Origin: Fidelibacterota bacterium
Lineage (GTDB): Bacteria; Pseudomonadota; Alphaproteobacteria; Rhodospirillales; Rhodospirillaceae
DNA: 38,667 bases
Reading direction: 5' to 3'
Assembly: GCA_947470105.1 (NCBI GenBank)
Contig: CANISR010000011.1
Location: 1 to 38,667 of the forward strand
The notes under the pieces were generated by a model. That model saw only the letters and a list, made by a program, of their open reading frames with translations. It ran no database searches and was not told the DNA's origin. The number at the start of each line of letters is the position of its first letter. Position 1 is the first letter of the stretch. Positions 63 to 30,322 of the stretch are shown here, piece by piece. The position numbers were made by a program, and so were the translations under genes.

Positions 63-581
63 TTAGGGTTTTGAAAGCAGGCCGGGCGCCGTGATCGCCG
101 CGCCGTCCGCCTGTTGCACATCGAAGATTTTGCCGTCGCTCGAGATGACCCGGCCTGGCACCGCGGCAATGGGAATCCCGGTGGCGCCGTCGATGACCGG
201 CAGGGGCCAGGGCTGGATCGTGACGAGGCCACCGTCGCGGACCGGCAAGGGCGTCACAACCCCGGCGCTGTCGACGCGGACGTTTGCCGTCTGGTTCGCG
301 GCTGTGAACTGCGGCGCCGCGCCGTCCACCACGGCCGGCGGCCGCACCACGGTTTCGGGCAGGCGCACGCCCAGGTCCTGGAGGTAGGCGATCCGGTCAG
401 CTCGGCTGAGGCCGTCCAGGGCGGATCTGACGGCCGCTTGATCGAGACCGAGGGCCGTAATCTGCGCGGCGATGCCGGAGCGAACGGACTCGACCCGGGT
501 ATCTTGCGCCATGGACAGGGATGCGCTGGTGCCGGCCGCAACGACGGCGGCGAGAGTGCATTGCAGGAATAAGGATTTCAC
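63..581 (-). CDS. Small exported protein, unrecognised family
   Basis: I do not recognise this family. The proposed start is the GTG at 581-579, because AGGAG lies 7 bases upstream on the minus strand; an upstream ATG at 632 would add 17 residues before the signal sequence and has less support. From the GTG the product has 172 residues. It begins with a basic-hydrophobic signal peptide of about 25 residues ending in SMA before Gln26, so it is probably exported to the periplasm. The next 50 or so residues look helical and charged. The rest is rich in Val, Pro, Gly and Ala and looks beta or extended, with no catalytic motif. It is divergent from the DUF6502/lipoprotein pair and shares about 160 bases of upstream DNA with it, so a joint role is possible but is only inferred. 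The stop is TAA at 65-63. Confidence 0.6.
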   Translation of the reverse strand: MKSLFLQCTLAAVVAAGTSASLSMAQDTRVESVRSGIAAQITALGLDQAAVRSALDGLSRADRIAYLQDLGVRLPETVVRPPAVVDGAAPQFTAANQTANVRVDSAGVVTPLPVRDGGLVTIQPWPLPVIDGATGIPIAAVPGRVISSDGKIFDVQQADGAAITAPGLLSKP

Positions 582-741
582 GGGGGCTCTCCTGGGTTGG
601 GAGTCAAGTTTGTGCGTGGGCTTATTGCACACGACGAACCGGACGATAGAAACCCCGAAACCTCAGGTCAAGACAAAAATGTGTGCATTTTCCCCACATC
701 ATGGTACACGGGCCTTTATCGTGTCATGTGCGGAAGAACAC
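582..741. other. Divergent intergenic region with probable promoters
   Basis: These 160 bases separate the leftward exported-protein gene from the rightward DUF6502 gene and must hold both promoters. A weak rightward candidate is TTGCAC at 625-630 with TAGAAA at 647-652, a 16-base spacer. A short inverted repeat, TGTGC at 611-615 and GCACA at 627-631, overlaps its -35 part and could be an operator. The elements match the consensus only partly, so I claim no exact start site. Confidence 0.25.
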
Positions 742-1587
742 GTGCCGGAGCCATCGCCACCGACCCTGTCCGAACCACCCCAGAGCCTGGTGCGGGCGAT
801 TCTGTGCCTGGCGCGACCTTTGGTGCGGCTGCTGATTTCCCGGGGCATCACCCTGCCGTACCTCACCAACCTGCTTAAATCGGTCTACGTGCAGGTGGCG
901 GAGACTCATTTCGCGGTCGATTCCGCCGCTCCCAGCGTCAGCCGGTTGAGTGTGCTCACGGGCCTGCAGCGCCGCGACATCCGCCGAATCCAGGAAGCGC
1001 CGCCGCCGGATCAAAGTCCGCCCCAGGCGCTGTCGCTGGGGTCGCGGCTTATGGCGATCTGGGCCGGCGACAAGCGCTATCTCGATGCTGCCGGAAAGCC
1101 CATGCCTCTGCCCCGCAGCGCCACGGACGCGCCGTCCTTCGACGACTTGGTGCGCGAGGTCTCAAAGGATGTGCGGCCAAAGGCAATACTCGACGAGCTC
1201 TTGCGTCTCGGCCTCGCGGCCATGGACGAGAGCGAGCGGGTATCGCTGAAGTCCGAAGGCTTCGTGCCGCGGGCGGGCTTCGACGAGAAAGCCTATTTCT
1301 TCGGCCGCAATCTTGCCGACCACGTCGGCACCAGCGCCCACAACCTTATGGGCGAGGGCGCGCCATTGCTGGAGCGCGCGGTCTATTACGACAAACTCAC
1401 AGCCGCCAGCGTCGCGCATCTCGCCGTCCGGGCGCGGGAGATGGGCACGGAGACCCTTGTCGCGTTCAACCGGGAAGCTCTGGCATGCGCCGATAACGAT
1501 GCCGGCAAGCCGGACGCCGACCGCCGCATGGCGCTTGGCCTGTACTACTACGAAGGCCCCGACGATCTGCCGGAGCCGAAGCCATGA
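742..1587 (+). CDS. DUF6502-like protein, possible DNA-binding regulator
   Basis: The product resembles the DUF6502 family of uncharacterised proteobacterial proteins. This is recalled from the N-terminal pattern (two hydrophobic-basic helices, LARPLVRLLISRGITLP) and from the lipoprotein gene that follows. The segment SVSRLSVLTGLQRRDIRRI reads like a helix-turn-helix, so a regulatory role is plausible but unproven. There is no signal peptide and no clear membrane segment, which suggests a cytoplasmic protein. The start is uncertain: GTG at 742 has GGAAG 5 bases upstream and gives 281 residues, while ATG at 679 and GTG at 721 are in-frame alternatives with poorer ribosome sites. The frame stays open back to 472, but that part overlaps the divergent gene. 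The stop overlaps the next gene's start (ATGA), so the two are translationally coupled. Confidence 0.65.
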   Translation: MPEPSPPTLSEPPQSLVRAILCLARPLVRLLISRGITLPYLTNLLKSVYVQVAETHFAVDSAAPSVSRLSVLTGLQRRDIRRIQEAPPPDQSPPQALSLGSRLMAIWAGDKRYLDAAGKPMPLPRSATDAPSFDDLVREVSKDVRPKAILDELLRLGLAAMDESERVSLKSEGFVPRAGFDEKAYFFGRNLADHVGTSAHNLMGEGAPLLERAVYYDKLTAASVAHLAVRAREMGTETLVAFNREALACADNDAGKPDADRRMALGLYYYEGPDDLPEPKP

Positions 1588-2786
1588 TTTCCCGCAGCTT
1601 GCGCGGGGTGTTTCTCGCGTCAGCCCTGCTCGCCCTTACGGGCTGCGCCGCCTTCGACACCCGCCCGGCGGTCTGCCGCCTGCAGCGGGGTGACGGCATC
1701 GGCGGCACAGGCATCCAAAGCGATGTCTTGCTGCGCCTGGTGGCCGCCGACCGGGGTATGGGCGGCACGGGCATTTCCGATCACCGCGGCATGGGTGGTA
1801 CGGGGGTGGTGGCGCAGAACGGCAATCGCGGCATGGGCGGCACCGGCATCATCGGCGTCGTCACCGGCTTCGGCTCCATCTGCGTCAACGGCTATGAGAT
1901 CGAGATGGCCGATTCCACCGCGGTTACCGTGGAGAACCTGCCGGCGGCGGCGGCCGATATCAAACTTGGCCAGGTGGTCGAGATCGAAGCCTTTAAGCCC
2001 GACGGCAAGCTCCCCGCTAAAAATCTAACGGCCGCATCCGTCAACGTGCGCATGGCTGTCGCCGGGCCGGTCAGCAGTGTCGGTCCCGACGGCACCACGG
2101 CAGTGATCGCCGGCCAGACCGTGCGGAAGTCGGCTTTGAGCCGGGCGGCGCAATTCAATGTCGGGCAGTGGGTCGCGGTATCCGGCCTGCGCCGCGGTGA
2201 TGATGTGGTGATCGCCACCTCCATTGAAACGCTGCCCCAGGCCGGGCGCGAGGTGCTGGTGGCAGGTCCGGTGCGCATGGACCTGGATGGTCGCCGGAGA
2301 ATCGGCGGGCTGATGGTAGCGGCCTCGCAACTCACGGCCGGCCAGACCGCCGTAGTGCGCGGTAGCGGGCAGGGGGCGACCTTTGTGGCCAGCGCGGTCA
2401 GGACCGAGCTTCCCCCGGATTTCACCACCCGCGTGGCAACCCTGTCGGTGGAAGGCTTTGCGACCGCCATGGATGCCGGCCAGATCCGGATCGGGTCCAT
2501 CACCGCGGGCGTCACCCAGAAGGTCCTGGCCGGGGCCCTGCGCACCGACCTGGGCGCCCAGGTGGTCCAATTGGAGGGGCGGCTCAATCCTATCGGCGTC
2601 CTGGCGCCGGACCGTGTCATCGTATCCGTCCGCCCGTTGGATGGCGTTCAGATCACCCGCCCCGAGCGGCTTGAGCTTTTGCCCGGGACCGGGGGCTCCA
2701 TCATCACCATCCTGCCGGGGAGGCCCGTGACCCCCGAACGGCCGGACATGGTCCCCGGGGTCATCGGCAGTGCCACCAAGCCCTAA
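1584..2786 (+). CDS. DUF5666-like lipoprotein with GMGGTG repeats
   Basis: This 400-residue protein is predicted to be exported and lipid-anchored. Residues 1-20 form a signal peptide ending in the lipobox LTG before Cys21. Residues 38-89 carry four copies of G(I/M)GGTG(I/V). The rest looks like about four tandem beta-rich modules (roughly 91-156, 158-216, 225-275 and 288-349). Each has a V-x-G-x-V opening, a central GQxV or GAQVV step and a closing beta strand, which matches my memory of DUF5666 domains. The C-terminus is Pro/Gly-rich. No catalytic residues stand out, so a structural or ligand-binding envelope role is more likely than an enzyme. Its ATG overlaps the stop of the DUF6502 gene, and I recall this pairing from other proteobacteria. 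The function of the family is unknown to me. Confidence 0.7.
   Translation: MISRSLRGVFLASALLALTGCAAFDTRPAVCRLQRGDGIGGTGIQSDVLLRLVAADRGMGGTGISDHRGMGGTGVVAQNGNRGMGGTGIIGVVTGFGSICVNGYEIEMADSTAVTVENLPAAAADIKLGQVVEIEAFKPDGKLPAKNLTAASVNVRMAVAGPVSSVGPDGTTAVIAGQTVRKSALSRAAQFNVGQWVAVSGLRRGDDVVIATSIETLPQAGREVLVAGPVRMDLDGRRRIGGLMVAASQLTAGQTAVVRGSGQGATFVASAVRTELPPDFTTRVATLSVEGFATAMDAGQIRIGSITAGVTQKVLAGALRTDLGAQVVQLEGRLNPIGVLAPDRVIVSVRPLDGVQITRPERLELLPGTGGSIITILPGRPVTPERPDMVPGVIGSATKP
1695..1850 (+). repeat. Four GMGGTG-type coding repeats
   Basis: Within the lipoprotein gene, codons 38-44, 58-64, 69-75 and 83-89 encode GIGGTGI, GMGGTGI, GMGGTGV and GMGGTGI. The DNA copies differ at third positions (ggc/ggt, acg/acc/aca), so the repeats have been kept at the protein level and are not a recent DNA duplication. 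Spacing between copies is uneven: 13, 4 and 7 residues. Confidence 0.85.
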
Positions 2787-3029: not shown

Positions 3030-3395
3030 ATGCAAAATATCTTGGTCGAATACCTGCCGATCCTGATTTTCCTTGGGATCGCTATGGGCCTAGCCCTGGT
3101 GATCATCATCGCGTCGTTGATCGCCGGCCCCTCCCGTCCTGACCCGGAAAAGACCTCCGCCTACGAATGCGGCTTCGAAGCCTTTGATGACGCGCGCTCC
3201 AAGTTCGACGTGCGCTTCTACCTGGTGTCGATCCTGTTCATCATTTTCGACCTGGAAGTGGCCTTCCTGTTCCCCTGGGCCGTGAGCCTGGGCCGCATCG
3301 GCCTGTTCGGCTTCTGGTCCATGATGGTCTTCCTGGGCGTATTGACCGTCGGTTTCATCTACGAGTGGAAAAAAGGAGCGTTGGAATGGGAATAA
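3030..3395 (+). CDS. nuoA: NADH-quinone oxidoreductase subunit A
   Basis: NuoA is a small membrane subunit of respiratory complex I, near the quinone-binding junction. The 121-residue product has three hydrophobic segments (about 8-32, 63-85 and 91-112). It has the family hallmark loop with YECGFEAF, whose Cys is the conserved loop cysteine, and [22 protein letters not shown] chose ATG 3030 because AGGG lies 5 bases upstream; a GTG at 3024 would add two residues. It is the first gene of the nuo operon and overlaps nuoB by 10 bases. Confidence 0.95.
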
Positions 3396-3940
3396 CCGTT
3401 CCGGGCGCGCCCGCAGTGGATCCTGTCCGGGCCACCGGCCCCGAAGACGCGAAATTCATGTCCCGAGTGGCGGGCGAGCTCTCGGATAAGGGCTTTCTGC
3501 TCACGTCCATCGACCAACTCGCCAACTGGGGCCGCACCGGCTCCATGTGGCCCATGACCTTTGGGCTGGCCTGCTGCGCCGTTGAGATGATGCATGTGGC
3601 CATGGCGCGCTATGACTTCGACCGCTTCGGCATGGTGTTCCGCCCGAGCCCGCGTCAGTCCGACGTCATGATCGTCGCCGGCACCCTCACCAACAAAATG
3701 GCGCCGGCCCTGCGCAAGGTTTACGACCAGATGCCGGAGCCGCGCTGGGTGATTTCCATGGGCTCCTGCGCCAATGGGGGCGGCTACTACCACTATTCCT
3801 ATTCCGTGGTGCGCGGCTGCGACCGCATCGTTCCCGTGGATATCTATGTGCCGGGCTGCCCGCCGACCGCGGAAGCGCTGCTCTACGGCATCCTGCAGCT
3901 CCCCAAGAAAATCCGCCGCGTCGGCACCATTGATCGCTAA
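3386..3940 (+). CDS. nuoB: NADH-quinone oxidoreductase subunit B
   Basis: NuoB is the complex I subunit that holds the terminal [4Fe-4S] cluster N2, the electron donor to quinone. The 184-residue product shows the unusual tandem cysteines CC at residues 63-64 in [10 protein letters not shown], with further ligands at Cys128 (GSCANGGG) and Cys158 (VPGCPPT). Together these are the complete N2 ligand set. ATG 3386 is preferred because GGAG lies 7 bases before it; the frame is open to a GTG at 3365 inside nuoA that lacks such a site. The gene overlaps the end of nuoA, which indicates translational coupling. Confidence 0.97.
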
Positions 3941-3961
3941 TCAGGGCGACCGGTAACCCAC

Positions 3962-4597
3962 ATGACAAACGCAACTGAAAAGCTCCGCGAGATCGCCGGC
4001 GTCATCGCGTCCACCCAGGGCGCTGACGTGGTCACCGCGGACGTAGTGCGCGGCGAGTTGATCGTCAACGCTCGGGCCGCCGCGATCGTGAAGGTTCTGA
4101 CCTTCCTGCGCGACGATCCGCGCATGAATTTCGATCAACTGGTTGATATCTGCGGCGCGGACTACCCCGAGCGCGCCGAGCGCCTGGAGGTGATCTACCA
4201 CCTCATCAGCATGAAGCAGAATTTGCGCGTGCGCATAAAGGTGCAGACCGGCGAAGAGGGTGTGGTCCCTACCGCGTGCGGCGTCTGGCCGTCGGCAAAC
4301 TGGCTGGAGCGCGAGGTCTGGGACATGTACGGCGTGTTCTTCTCCGACCACCCGGACCTGCGCCGCATTCTTACCGACTACGGCTTTGAAGGCTTCCCGC
4401 TGCGCAAGGATTTCCCGCTCACCGGCTATGTGGAAGTCCGCTACGACGAGGACCAGAAGCGCGTGATCTACGAGCCCGTGAAGCTCGCCCAGGATTTCCG
4501 CAGCTTCGACTTCCTCAGCCCGTGGGAAGGCATTCAGAAGATTCTGCCGGGCGACGAGAAAGCCCCTCCGGCTCCCGCGAAGCAGGGAGGCGCATAA
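3962..4597 (+). CDS. nuoC: NADH-quinone oxidoreductase subunit C
   Basis: NuoC is the 30-kDa subunit of the complex I connecting module and lies beside NuoB and NuoD. The 211-residue protein has the family's C-terminal signature, from [20 protein letters not shown] through the [10 protein letters not shown] segment, followed by [13 protein letters not shown]. It is a separate gene here, not fused to nuoD as in enterobacteria. The C-terminal tail is Pro/Ala-rich (KAPPAPAKQ). It starts 21 bases after nuoB and ends one base before the nuoD start. Confidence 0.96.
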
Positions 4598-4598
4598 C

Positions 4599-5804
4599 AT
4601 GCCCGATACCGCGCATATGGACGACAACGTCGGCAGGGAAATTGAGAACTACACCCTCAATTTCGGCCCCCAACATCCCGCGGCCCACGGCGTGCTGCGT
4701 CTGGTCCTGGAAATGGACGGCGAAGTCATCGACCGCTGCGATCCTCACATCGGGCTGCTCCACCGCGGCACCGAGAAGCTGATCGAGTACAAGACCTACC
4801 TGCAGGCGATCCCGTACTTCGACCGCCTCGACTACGTCTCGCCCATGAACCAGGAGCAGACGTTCGCCATCGCCATCGAACGCCTGCTCGGCATCACGCC
4901 GCCGAAGCGCGCCCAGTACATCCGCGTGATGTTCGGCGAGCTGACCCGCATCCTCAACCACATCATGAACATCGCGTCTTACGCCATGGACGTGGGCGCC
5001 ATGACGCCGTTCCTGTGGACCTTCGAGGAACGCGAAAAGCTGATGGGGTTCTACGACGAGGTCTGCGGTGCGCGCCTGCACGCCAACTACATCCGTCCGG
5101 GCGGCGTCAGCATGGATCTGCCGCCGGGCCTCATGGACCGCATCAAGCTGTGGGCCGACAACTACCCCAAGATGATCGACGACCTTGAAGGCCTGCTCAC
5201 CGAGAACCGCATTTTCAAGCAGCGGACCGTCGATATCGGCGTGGTCTCGGCCGAACAGGCCATTGCCTGGAGCTTCTCCGGCCCCAATCTGCGCGCCTCG
5301 GGTCTGGCGTGGGATCTGCGTAAGTCGCAGCCTTACGACTCCTACGAAGACTTCGATTTCGACATTCCGATCACCAAGCACGGCGATTGCTACGACCGCT
5401 ATCTCGTGCGCGTCGAGGAAATGCGCCAGTCGGTGAAGATCATCCAGCAGTGCCTGGAGAAAATGCCCGGCGGCCCTGTGCGCGTGAACGACAGAAAAGT
5501 GATGTCGCCGCCGCGCGGCGAGATGAAGACCTCCATGGAAGCGCTGATCCACCACTTCAAGCTCTATACCGAAGGCTTCAAGGTCCCCGCGGGCGAAATT
5601 TACGCCTGCACCGAAGCGCCCAAGGGCGAGTTCGGCGTGTACCTGGTGGCCGACGGCACCAACAAGCCCTACCGCTGCCGCATCCGGGCTCCGGGGTTCG
5701 TACACCTGGAAGCCATGGACGCCATGCTGCGCGGCCATATGCTCGCGGACGTTCCTGCCGTCCTTGGTTCAATTGATATCGTGTTCGGCGAGGTCGACCG
5801 ATGA
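4599..5804 (+). CDS. nuoD: NADH-quinone oxidoreductase subunit D
   Basis: NuoD is the 49-kDa subunit of complex I. It is related to the large subunit of [NiFe] hydrogenases and forms much of the quinone pocket with NuoB. The 401-residue product has the [15 protein letters not shown] motif near the N-terminus, whose His is implicated in quinone binding in the family. Next come [12 protein letters not shown] and [12 protein letters not shown], and it ends in [12 protein letters not shown] as most NuoD proteins do. A GGAGG ribosome site overlaps the end of nuoC. The stop overlaps the nuoE start in an ATGA. Confidence 0.97.
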
Positions 5805-30202: not shown

Positions 30203-30322
30203 CCGGGCCATTCCACACGCGGGCTCGGGCAACTGGGTGTTCCAGTTTGTCCATCCGGTGCCGGGGGAACGGTTTCCCTGGTCACTCGCCCGCGGAGGCA
30301 CAACCGGAAAACAGAGGACAAC

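Follow-up and report, generated by a model that had tools for sequence, protein, structure and literature searches.

What does a protein from a family without described function do when its gene overlaps that of an exported lipoprotein and faces, across a short gap, the gene of a second exported protein? The question is raised by the first 2.8 kb of contig C11 (CANISR010000011.1) of a 3.86-Mb draft genome assigned to the Rhodospirillaceae; the entire contig, 38,667 nucleotides long, was analysed and is called the window here. These 2.8 kb consist of three genes, encoding a divergent exported protein, a DUF6502 protein and a DUF5666 lipoprotein (Table 1). An original prediction, made from the sequence, had placed them with an ATGA overlap within the pair and a 160-base gap (582-741) in front of it, and had proposed a small envelope module in which the DUF6502 protein controls its own operon. 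The three genes, the overlap and the gap are all confirmed, with open frames. On our best reading, DUF6502 proteins bind DNA, regulate their own genes and make up a regulator family not recognised so far, and comparison of upstream regions makes it very probable that the protein reads the palindrome GTGKG-N7-CMCAC.

Both predicted family assignments are borne out by profile searches. The DUF6502 protein matches Pfam PF20112 over residues 18-272 (E 1.6e-33; 116.2 bits, cut-off 27), and the lipoprotein matches DUF5666 (PF18914) in two stretches (E 2.1e-12; 47.6 bits, cut-off 27). No Pfam family matches the divergent protein at E <= 1, and none of the three proteins reaches an NCBIfam cut-off.

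Results

A palindrome recurs upstream of DUF6502 genes

A scan of named genomes yielded 481 relatives of the DUF6502 protein, the best 80 of which were kept (loci L087-L166; some of these contigs also figure, differently named, among L037-L086); counts out of 80 refer to these loci and counts out of 81 to these plus the window. Compared side by side, the upstream regions share the palindrome GTGGGAAWWWTTCCCAC, with the variants GTGGGT/C..A/GCCCAC and GTGTGT..ACACAC in the window's own subgroup. Within the 250 bases before the DUF6502 starts (20 kb in total over the 81 loci), exact GTGKG-N7-CMCAC sites occur 87 times, upstream of 55 genes, against 0.39 expected and a mean of 0.07 (maximum 1) in shuffled upstream regions. 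Outside these upstream regions, the loci contain 15 exact sites in 780 kb. GTGGG..CCCAC occurs 66 times at a spacing of seven and never at spacings 3-6 or 8-13, and the A/T core is strongly constrained. When scored with a matrix built from the exact sites, 74/81 upstream regions, including 19 of the 26 without an exact site, lie above the 99th percentile of control windows. The two sites in the window (operators 1 and 2) are 65 bases apart. Successive pairs are separated by 62-67 bases in 19 of 32 cases and otherwise by 34-36, 45, 55, 59 or 88-93; given this scatter, we do not claim strict helical phasing.

The palindrome also accompanies DUF6502 from genome to genome. In the related-genome set (G numbers), to which all counts out of 61 or 99 refer, the pattern GTGKGNWWWWWNCMCAC is found in 24 of the 25 genomes with DUF6502 and in 2 of the 36 without (61 genomes; Fisher 1.3e-13). 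By manual count of the listings, 58 of the 66 sites in the 25 DUF6502 genomes stand directly before a DUF6502 gene; the backward pattern, used as a control, gives 0-1 matches per genome. G018 is the sole DUF6502 genome without a site. The window's own genome (G000) carries two further DUF6502-DUF5666 pairs, on contigs C100 and C3. Its 3.86 Mb contain four pattern matches, all before DUF6502 genes (two at the window copy, two at the C3 copy), and the C100 copy has an operator variant with a C-containing core. Twelve of 14 further genomes reached via the loci have 1-7 sites, and exact sites are present in three of the four plasmid loci inspected (those from Azospirillum, Methylocystis and Pseudoroseomonas); the fourth, Rhizobium L169, has none.

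Operator type follows residues of a predicted recognition helix

As for the protein itself, its structure model (81 sequences; mean predicted local distance difference test score, pLDDT, 89) suggests two helix-turn-helix units followed by two long helices, in line with the DNA-binding type of fold that had been predicted. In VIA-align, unit 1 aligns with sigma factor region 4 (Z 6.5-6.7) and Z-alpha chains, and unit 2 with IclR (Z 6-7), MarR (Z 6-7) and other winged helices; HetR alignments (Z 6.8) were set aside as too loose, with a root mean square deviation of about 10. DUF6502 is the only Pfam family matched at E <= 1: no MarR, IclR or PadR profile matches, and neither does any sigma-70 region profile. 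A sequence search against solved structures gave two sub-significant matches, and a relationship by sequence to a protein of solved structure was rejected on that ground. One of the two, a phage immunity repressor (E 0.087), covers the helix-turn-helix region and is not used as proof.

We rate a correlation between protein and DNA as a better argument for DNA reading by DUF6502 than these structure matches. Operator and residue could be typed at 65/81 loci. Operator base 6 is A at all 54 loci where residue 76 is H, and is not A at any of the 11 where residue 76 is Q. When all alignment columns are ranked, the best-separating ones are 76, 84, 75 and 83, all four within the predicted recognition helix of unit 1 or next to it. 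The window's genome has both types, the window copy combining Q76 with C/T operators and the C3 copy, which belongs to the mnmC-linked group described below, having A operators.

The operators flank a promoter-like site

The 160-base gap contains a sigma-70-like promoter match for the divergent gene, enclosed by the two operators; promoter-like sites number 2 in 3.6 kb, against 0.5 in shuffles. The same promoter-like element between operators, in the same order, is also seen at L101, L113, L161, L095 and L117. Operator 1 covers the point where the divergent transcript is expected to begin and operator 2 precedes the DUF6502 start, an arrangement that fits repression in both directions. The start of DUF6502 is a choice among in-frame starts, alternatives being 679 (ATG) and 721 (GTG); GTG742 was taken because of its GGAAG spacing. 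With operators in the promoter region of its own operon, the predicted autoregulation by DUF6502 gains comparative support and appears probable.

Table 1. Features of the DUF6502 locus in the window and of the structured RNA at its sister locus
Feature	Position	Strand	Remarks
Divergent exported protein, 172 amino acids	63-581	-	GTG start at 581, AGGAG upstream
Signal peptide within divergent exported protein (position is that of the whole gene)	63-581	-	recognised by eye
Operator 1 (putative), GTGGGCTTATTGCACAC	616-632		immediately 3' of the divergent -10
Sigma-70-like promoter of divergent gene	643-671	-	TTGACC (671-666), 17 bases, TATCGT (648-643); consensus match only
Operator 2 (putative), GTGTGCATTTTCCCCAC	681-697		upstream of the divergent -35; 45 bases before the chosen DUF6502 start
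DUF6502 protein, 281 amino acids, proposed autoregulator	742-1587	+	PF20112 match; structure model m2c10782fb682
Predicted helix-turn-helix 1, residues 37-89	850-1008	+	structure model; holds residues 75, 76, 83, 84
Predicted winged helix-turn-helix 2, residues 92-177	1015-1272	+	structure model
Two long C-terminal helices (predicted), residues 180-203, 221-253	1279-1500	+	structure model; dimerisation guessed
DUF5666 lipoprotein, 400 amino acids	1584-2786	+	ATGA overlap with DUF6502 stop at 1584-1587
Four G(I/M)GGTG motifs, at 1695, 1755, 1788, 1830	1695-1847	+	after signal peptide, flexible part
Four small OB-type beta modules (predicted), residues about 86-156, 159-216, 224-274, 284-347	1839-2624	+	structure model
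Sister-locus structured RNA	G000:C3:41019-41114; L066 5820-5915	-	divergent from DUF6502 paralogue of own genome

Exported proteins with GIGGTG motifs accompany DUF6502

DUF6502 is present in 33/99 related genomes, including all 19 of the same genus (the window's own among them), and in none of 14 control genomes. It stands side by side with DUF5666 in 48 of 50 fetched stretches, the other two ending at a contig edge. The best 80 of the 481 relatives come from alpha-, beta- and gammaproteobacteria and from some metagenome-assembled genomes labelled otherwise. A same-strand DUF5666 gene adjoins DUF6502 in 64 of these 80 loci, which upholds the pair as a unit. The 16 other loci are mostly gammaproteobacterial, and 12 of them have an exported protein with GIGGTG motifs beside DUF6502 instead, downstream in seven (L115, L116, L128, L130, L132, L133, L164) and divergent in five (L124-L127, L157). 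What accompanies DUF6502 steadily is thus an exported GIGGTG-bearing protein, in most loci a DUF5666 one. Two of the loci have peculiarities: L116 is a gammaproteobacterial-type locus in a metagenome-assembled record titled Klebsiella pneumoniae, a title that looks wrong, and at L159 the divergent gene is itself a second DUF5666 lipoprotein (3340-4821, minus strand).

The window lipoprotein has a putative lipobox, LTGC at residues 18-21 with Cys21, recognised by eye (Pfam LPAM_1 scores 12.8 bits, below its cut-off of 20); the cysteine is absent in some relatives. Its structure model (m8cf848fbd147; 35 sequences, mean pLDDT 79) predicts a row of four modules of oligonucleotide/oligosaccharide-binding (OB) type, and single modules resemble the OB folds of RPA32, PriB, CusF and PilY2 (Z 7-8.5). 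Whole-chain Foldseek matches to DDB1 were disregarded (template modelling score, TM, 0.1). Relatives differ in how many GIGGTG motifs they carry, and many have an Arg-Pro-rich tail at their end; the motif is found in 60/67 DUF5666 frames of the 80-locus set. The GIGGTG DNA pattern matches eight times in the window's own genome, six times in three DUF5666 proteins and twice in short or doubtful frames. The sole other plausible GIGGTG frame of that genome, around 351 on G000:C6 (L274), is short, contains MAKKSKPGKSEDPSGIGGTGQ and has no signal peptide. Elsewhere, in 13 genomes, the motif falls in unrelated cytoplasmic proteins or doubtful frames. GIGGTG is a linear motif common to otherwise unrelated exported proteins at DUF6502 loci; a common role in export or sorting is a tentative suggestion.

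The gene on the other side of the gap is less constant. A convincing counterpart of the window's divergent protein is found in 2/61 genomes only, G000 itself and G004, where the homologue occupies the same place (G004:C202); two further genomes give E 0.004-0.007 only, inside long frames. Divergent frames with a signal-peptide-like start were called at 26/81 loci and at 116/2193 random anchors (5.3%), or at 18/81 and 68/2206 when only ATG starts were allowed; the caller is crude, and some calls look false (e.g., L143, L149, L151). It is the divergent place that recurs, filled by an exported protein or a structured RNA, not the window's particular protein. The three-gene envelope module of the original prediction survives in part: the pair holds and a divergent exported class is enriched, but this particular divergent protein is conserved in so few genomes that a fixed set of three genes is not supported.

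A beta-barrel gene related to PF13557, the family of Phenol_MetA_deg outer-membrane barrels, occurs at 40/80 loci, on the same strand in 13 (e.g., in Nitrosomonas, Azoarcus and Aromatoleum) and on the opposite strand in 27. Eleven of 27 barrel members match PF13557 at E <= 0.01; the barrel at L037 scores 16.4 bits against a cut-off of 22, and one member weakly matches FapF (E 0.0035). No barrel gene was seen adjoining the window DUF6502 copy, where the contig ends at base 1. Operator control of the barrel gene in alphaproteobacteria was rejected, since barrel upstream regions, inspected by eye, mostly have no site.

As for mobility, no relative of the DUF6502 protein was found in viral contigs, while 75 plasmid records have one, 66 of them from Rhizobium. 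DUF6502 can therefore ride on plasmids. A viral or plasmid origin of the window copy was rejected, in view of the lack of viral relatives and the position of this copy beside nuo genes, the genes for NADH dehydrogenase subunits lying directly downstream of the lipoprotein gene.

A few sites stand before other genes

Three or four of the eight pattern sites distant from DUF6502 genes look like genuine targets. In G020, two sites stand 26 and 91 bases before the start of a secreted Dioxygenase_C-type protein (G020:C3; L198 2021-2983, minus strand) that has a GGMGGTGG stretch behind a twin-arginine-like leader; it is a candidate unlinked target, on a different contig from the DUF6502 genes of G020. 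G020 and G004 each have one exported protein whose start is preceded by a site, at a distance of 41 or about 50 bases. A fourth G020 site is intergenic, between two genes, and G019 and G022 share one intergenic site behind genes. The remaining distant sites were taken as chance because they lie inside coding sequence.

Two side observations concern similar sites. One and the same operator-like palindrome occupies the same intergenic place, between convergent genes, in two genera (L200 2973 and L201 3019). In Nitrosomonas supralitoralis a single case was seen of a site (L213 152-168) 245 bases before flavocytochrome c sulfide dehydrogenase-like genes.

A structured RNA occupies the divergent place at the sister locus

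At loci where DUF6502 follows a Methyltransf_30/DAO gene, which we take to be mnmC, the divergent promoter between the operators leads to no conserved protein and into a conserved stretch, about 200 bases long, with a strong terminator-like hairpin at its end. The copy on C3 folds 5.4 standard deviations better than shuffles, and RNAalifold gives 22 pairs, 11 of them with changes on both sides. For the outer helix, the true combinations of left and right arm score -15.5, a better pairing than that of permuted combinations (-11.3, standard deviation 0.5; 29 sequences, kinship uncorrected, one row, L075, with a wrong anchor), and none of 5000 permutations equalled the true pairing.

A covariance model, from whose alignment L083 was dropped because of an insertion, detects the RNA in 32/33 genomes with DUF6502 and 0/66 without; G018, the genome without a pattern site, lacks the RNA as well. 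Since the model was trained on 28 sequences beside DUF6502, 26 of the 32 positive genomes are not independent. The other six gave no training sequence, and all six matches adjoin DUF6502. The RNA turned up neither in the window nor in the remaining loci searched, beta- and gammaproteobacterial ones included; the only matches of that search were six loci of the same mnmC-linked group. Two degenerate extra copies, L242 (G041:C10) and L243 (G059:C25), have neither operator nor terminator and lie in near-identical surroundings. Rfam gave no match at gathering in eight loci, with only far sub-threshold matches at E <= 5, and a known RNA family was rejected accordingly. The idea that the conserved loop pairs with regions around the starts of the DUF6502, lipoprotein and barrel genes was also rejected, with mean z of 0.1, -0.4 and 0.8 against shuffles at 15, 15 and 13 loci, respectively (L107, which has no anchor, was dropped).

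Discussion

We propose that DUF6502, by means of its two predicted helix-turn-helix units, binds the palindrome directly, probably as a dimer. The two operators would lie on either side of the divergent promoter and extend over the region where the DUF6502-lipoprotein operon starts, and on the simplest reading DUF6502 would repress this operon and the divergent gene alike until some envelope signal lifts the block. The cargo would be exported proteins with GIGGTG behind the signal peptide, in the window a DUF5666 lipoprotein of four OB-like modules.

The direction of control is the part of this proposal most open to a rival. DUF6502 might activate instead, which would suit the position of operator 2 upstream of the divergent -35, as expected for an activator, and a DUF6502 promoter without a good -35, the best plus-strand match near 742 being poor (3/6 in the first hexamer). 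Operator 1, however, lies over the expected divergent transcript start, a typical place for a repressor. We therefore consider repression the likelier direction, with reasonable though far from full confidence, and activation possible at clearly longer odds.

That another protein binds the palindromes, DUF6502 being merely one of its targets, is improbable. A palindrome beside a gene does not identify its reader, and direct binding by DUF6502 is our supposition, but the sites accompany DUF6502 and are nearly absent without it, and their type follows residues of its own predicted recognition helix. Still less probable is mere co-location of the three genes without a functional module: the poor conservation of the divergent protein would agree with it, but the pair is adjacent across several proteobacterial classes and a GIGGTG protein replaces DUF5666 in most of the other loci. 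Action of the palindromes in RNA, as leader or terminator hairpins, is the least credible. Their form as inverted repeats would suit it, and so would operator 1, whose sequence may be transcribed at the very beginning of the divergent transcript. Against it stand the place of operator 2, upstream of the divergent promoter, the strongly constrained A/T core, and 14/87 sites, including the two of the window, in which positions 4 and 14 are T opposite C or G opposite A; such mismatches would break an RNA stem and therefore favour protein half-sites over a hairpin.

Several observations count against DUF6502 as an autoregulator that reads the palindrome. The loci are mutually related, so that their counts are not independent, and the residue-operator split follows one clade and therefore represents one event, not many. 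No convincing operator is found at 7/81 loci, including two of Nitrosomonas (L146, L160), or at the Rhizobium locus L169; eight of the 66 pattern sites lie away from DUF6502 genes; and the window promoters are consensus matches only. As for the fold, five DUF6502 models range in pLDDT from 89 to 66, Foldseek returns nothing significant (best E 0.35), and the VIA-align scores are middling (Z <= 7.4), the tool itself warning that Z < 8 may reflect a common arrangement.

More speculatively, DUF6502, palindrome and GIGGTG proteins could form one unrecognised proteobacterial system of regulation and export, whose regulator senses how the envelope fares. GIGGTG would then earmark its proteins for one shared destination, such as being recognised or let through by the accompanying outer-membrane barrel, and in one alphaproteobacterial family the structured RNA would tune the system as its divergent output. 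We regard this wider picture as a conjecture that is more likely wrong than right.

The layout, with a promoter, two operators and divergent genes, is like that of autoregulated winged helix-turn-helix repressors of the MarR, IclR and PadR families, and the predicted winged helix aligns with MarR and IclR chains. DUF6502 differs from them in that it matches none of their Pfam profiles, has a further predicted helix-turn-helix ahead of the winged one and shares its operon with an exported lipoprotein. It aligns with sigma factor region 4 in unit 1 but is without the other sigma regions, and its putative operator is an inverted repeat instead of a -35 element. MraZ binds GTGGG direct repeats and autoregulates its operon. 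The DUF6502 locus shares the GTGGG half-sites and the probable autoregulation, but its repeats are inverted with a fixed spacing of 7, and the DUF6502 protein has no MraZ domain. Single lipoprotein modules align with the periplasmic OB-fold proteins CusF and PilY2 (Z about 7.5), whereas the whole is predicted to be a chain of four.

With respect to Pfam, the window protein is a member of a family without described function that here gains a predicted fold, a putative operator and partners. In the lipoprotein, the first of the four modules is the one that matches DUF5666 above cut-off; beyond the Pfam entry, it comprises a run of four modules preceded by GIGGTG motifs, and its gene has a fixed place behind DUF6502. 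Among the extracts returned by a full-text literature search, no paper dealt with DUF6502 or with the palindrome (searched in six forms), and none gave a function for DUF5666; matches for the hexapeptides were, by their titles, not relevant. In those extracts, DUF5666 genes appear in the table of a Mycobacterium abscessus regulon and in an Acidithiobacillus network table, a pH-prediction model uses DUF5666 as the name of a feature, and a stability proteome includes a Cupriavidus DUF5666 protein (UniProt Q0KEC5).

Two families without described function thus become one testable hypothesis that names a protein, a 17-base site, a residue expected to set its specificity and a handful of targets. 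The pair occurs widely, as the number of relatives in a single genome-collection scan attests. GIGGTG is shared by otherwise unrelated exported proteins, including one unlinked candidate target in a relative, and a structured RNA outside every Rfam family tracks the regulator genome by genome.

Two minor features of the window lie beyond the three genes. A hairpin with a T-run on the minus strand (2977-2999) stands between the lipoprotein gene and the first NADH dehydrogenase gene, and an Rfam rpsB sRNA match is found at 30214-30321 on the plus strand (41.9 bits, cut-off 40).

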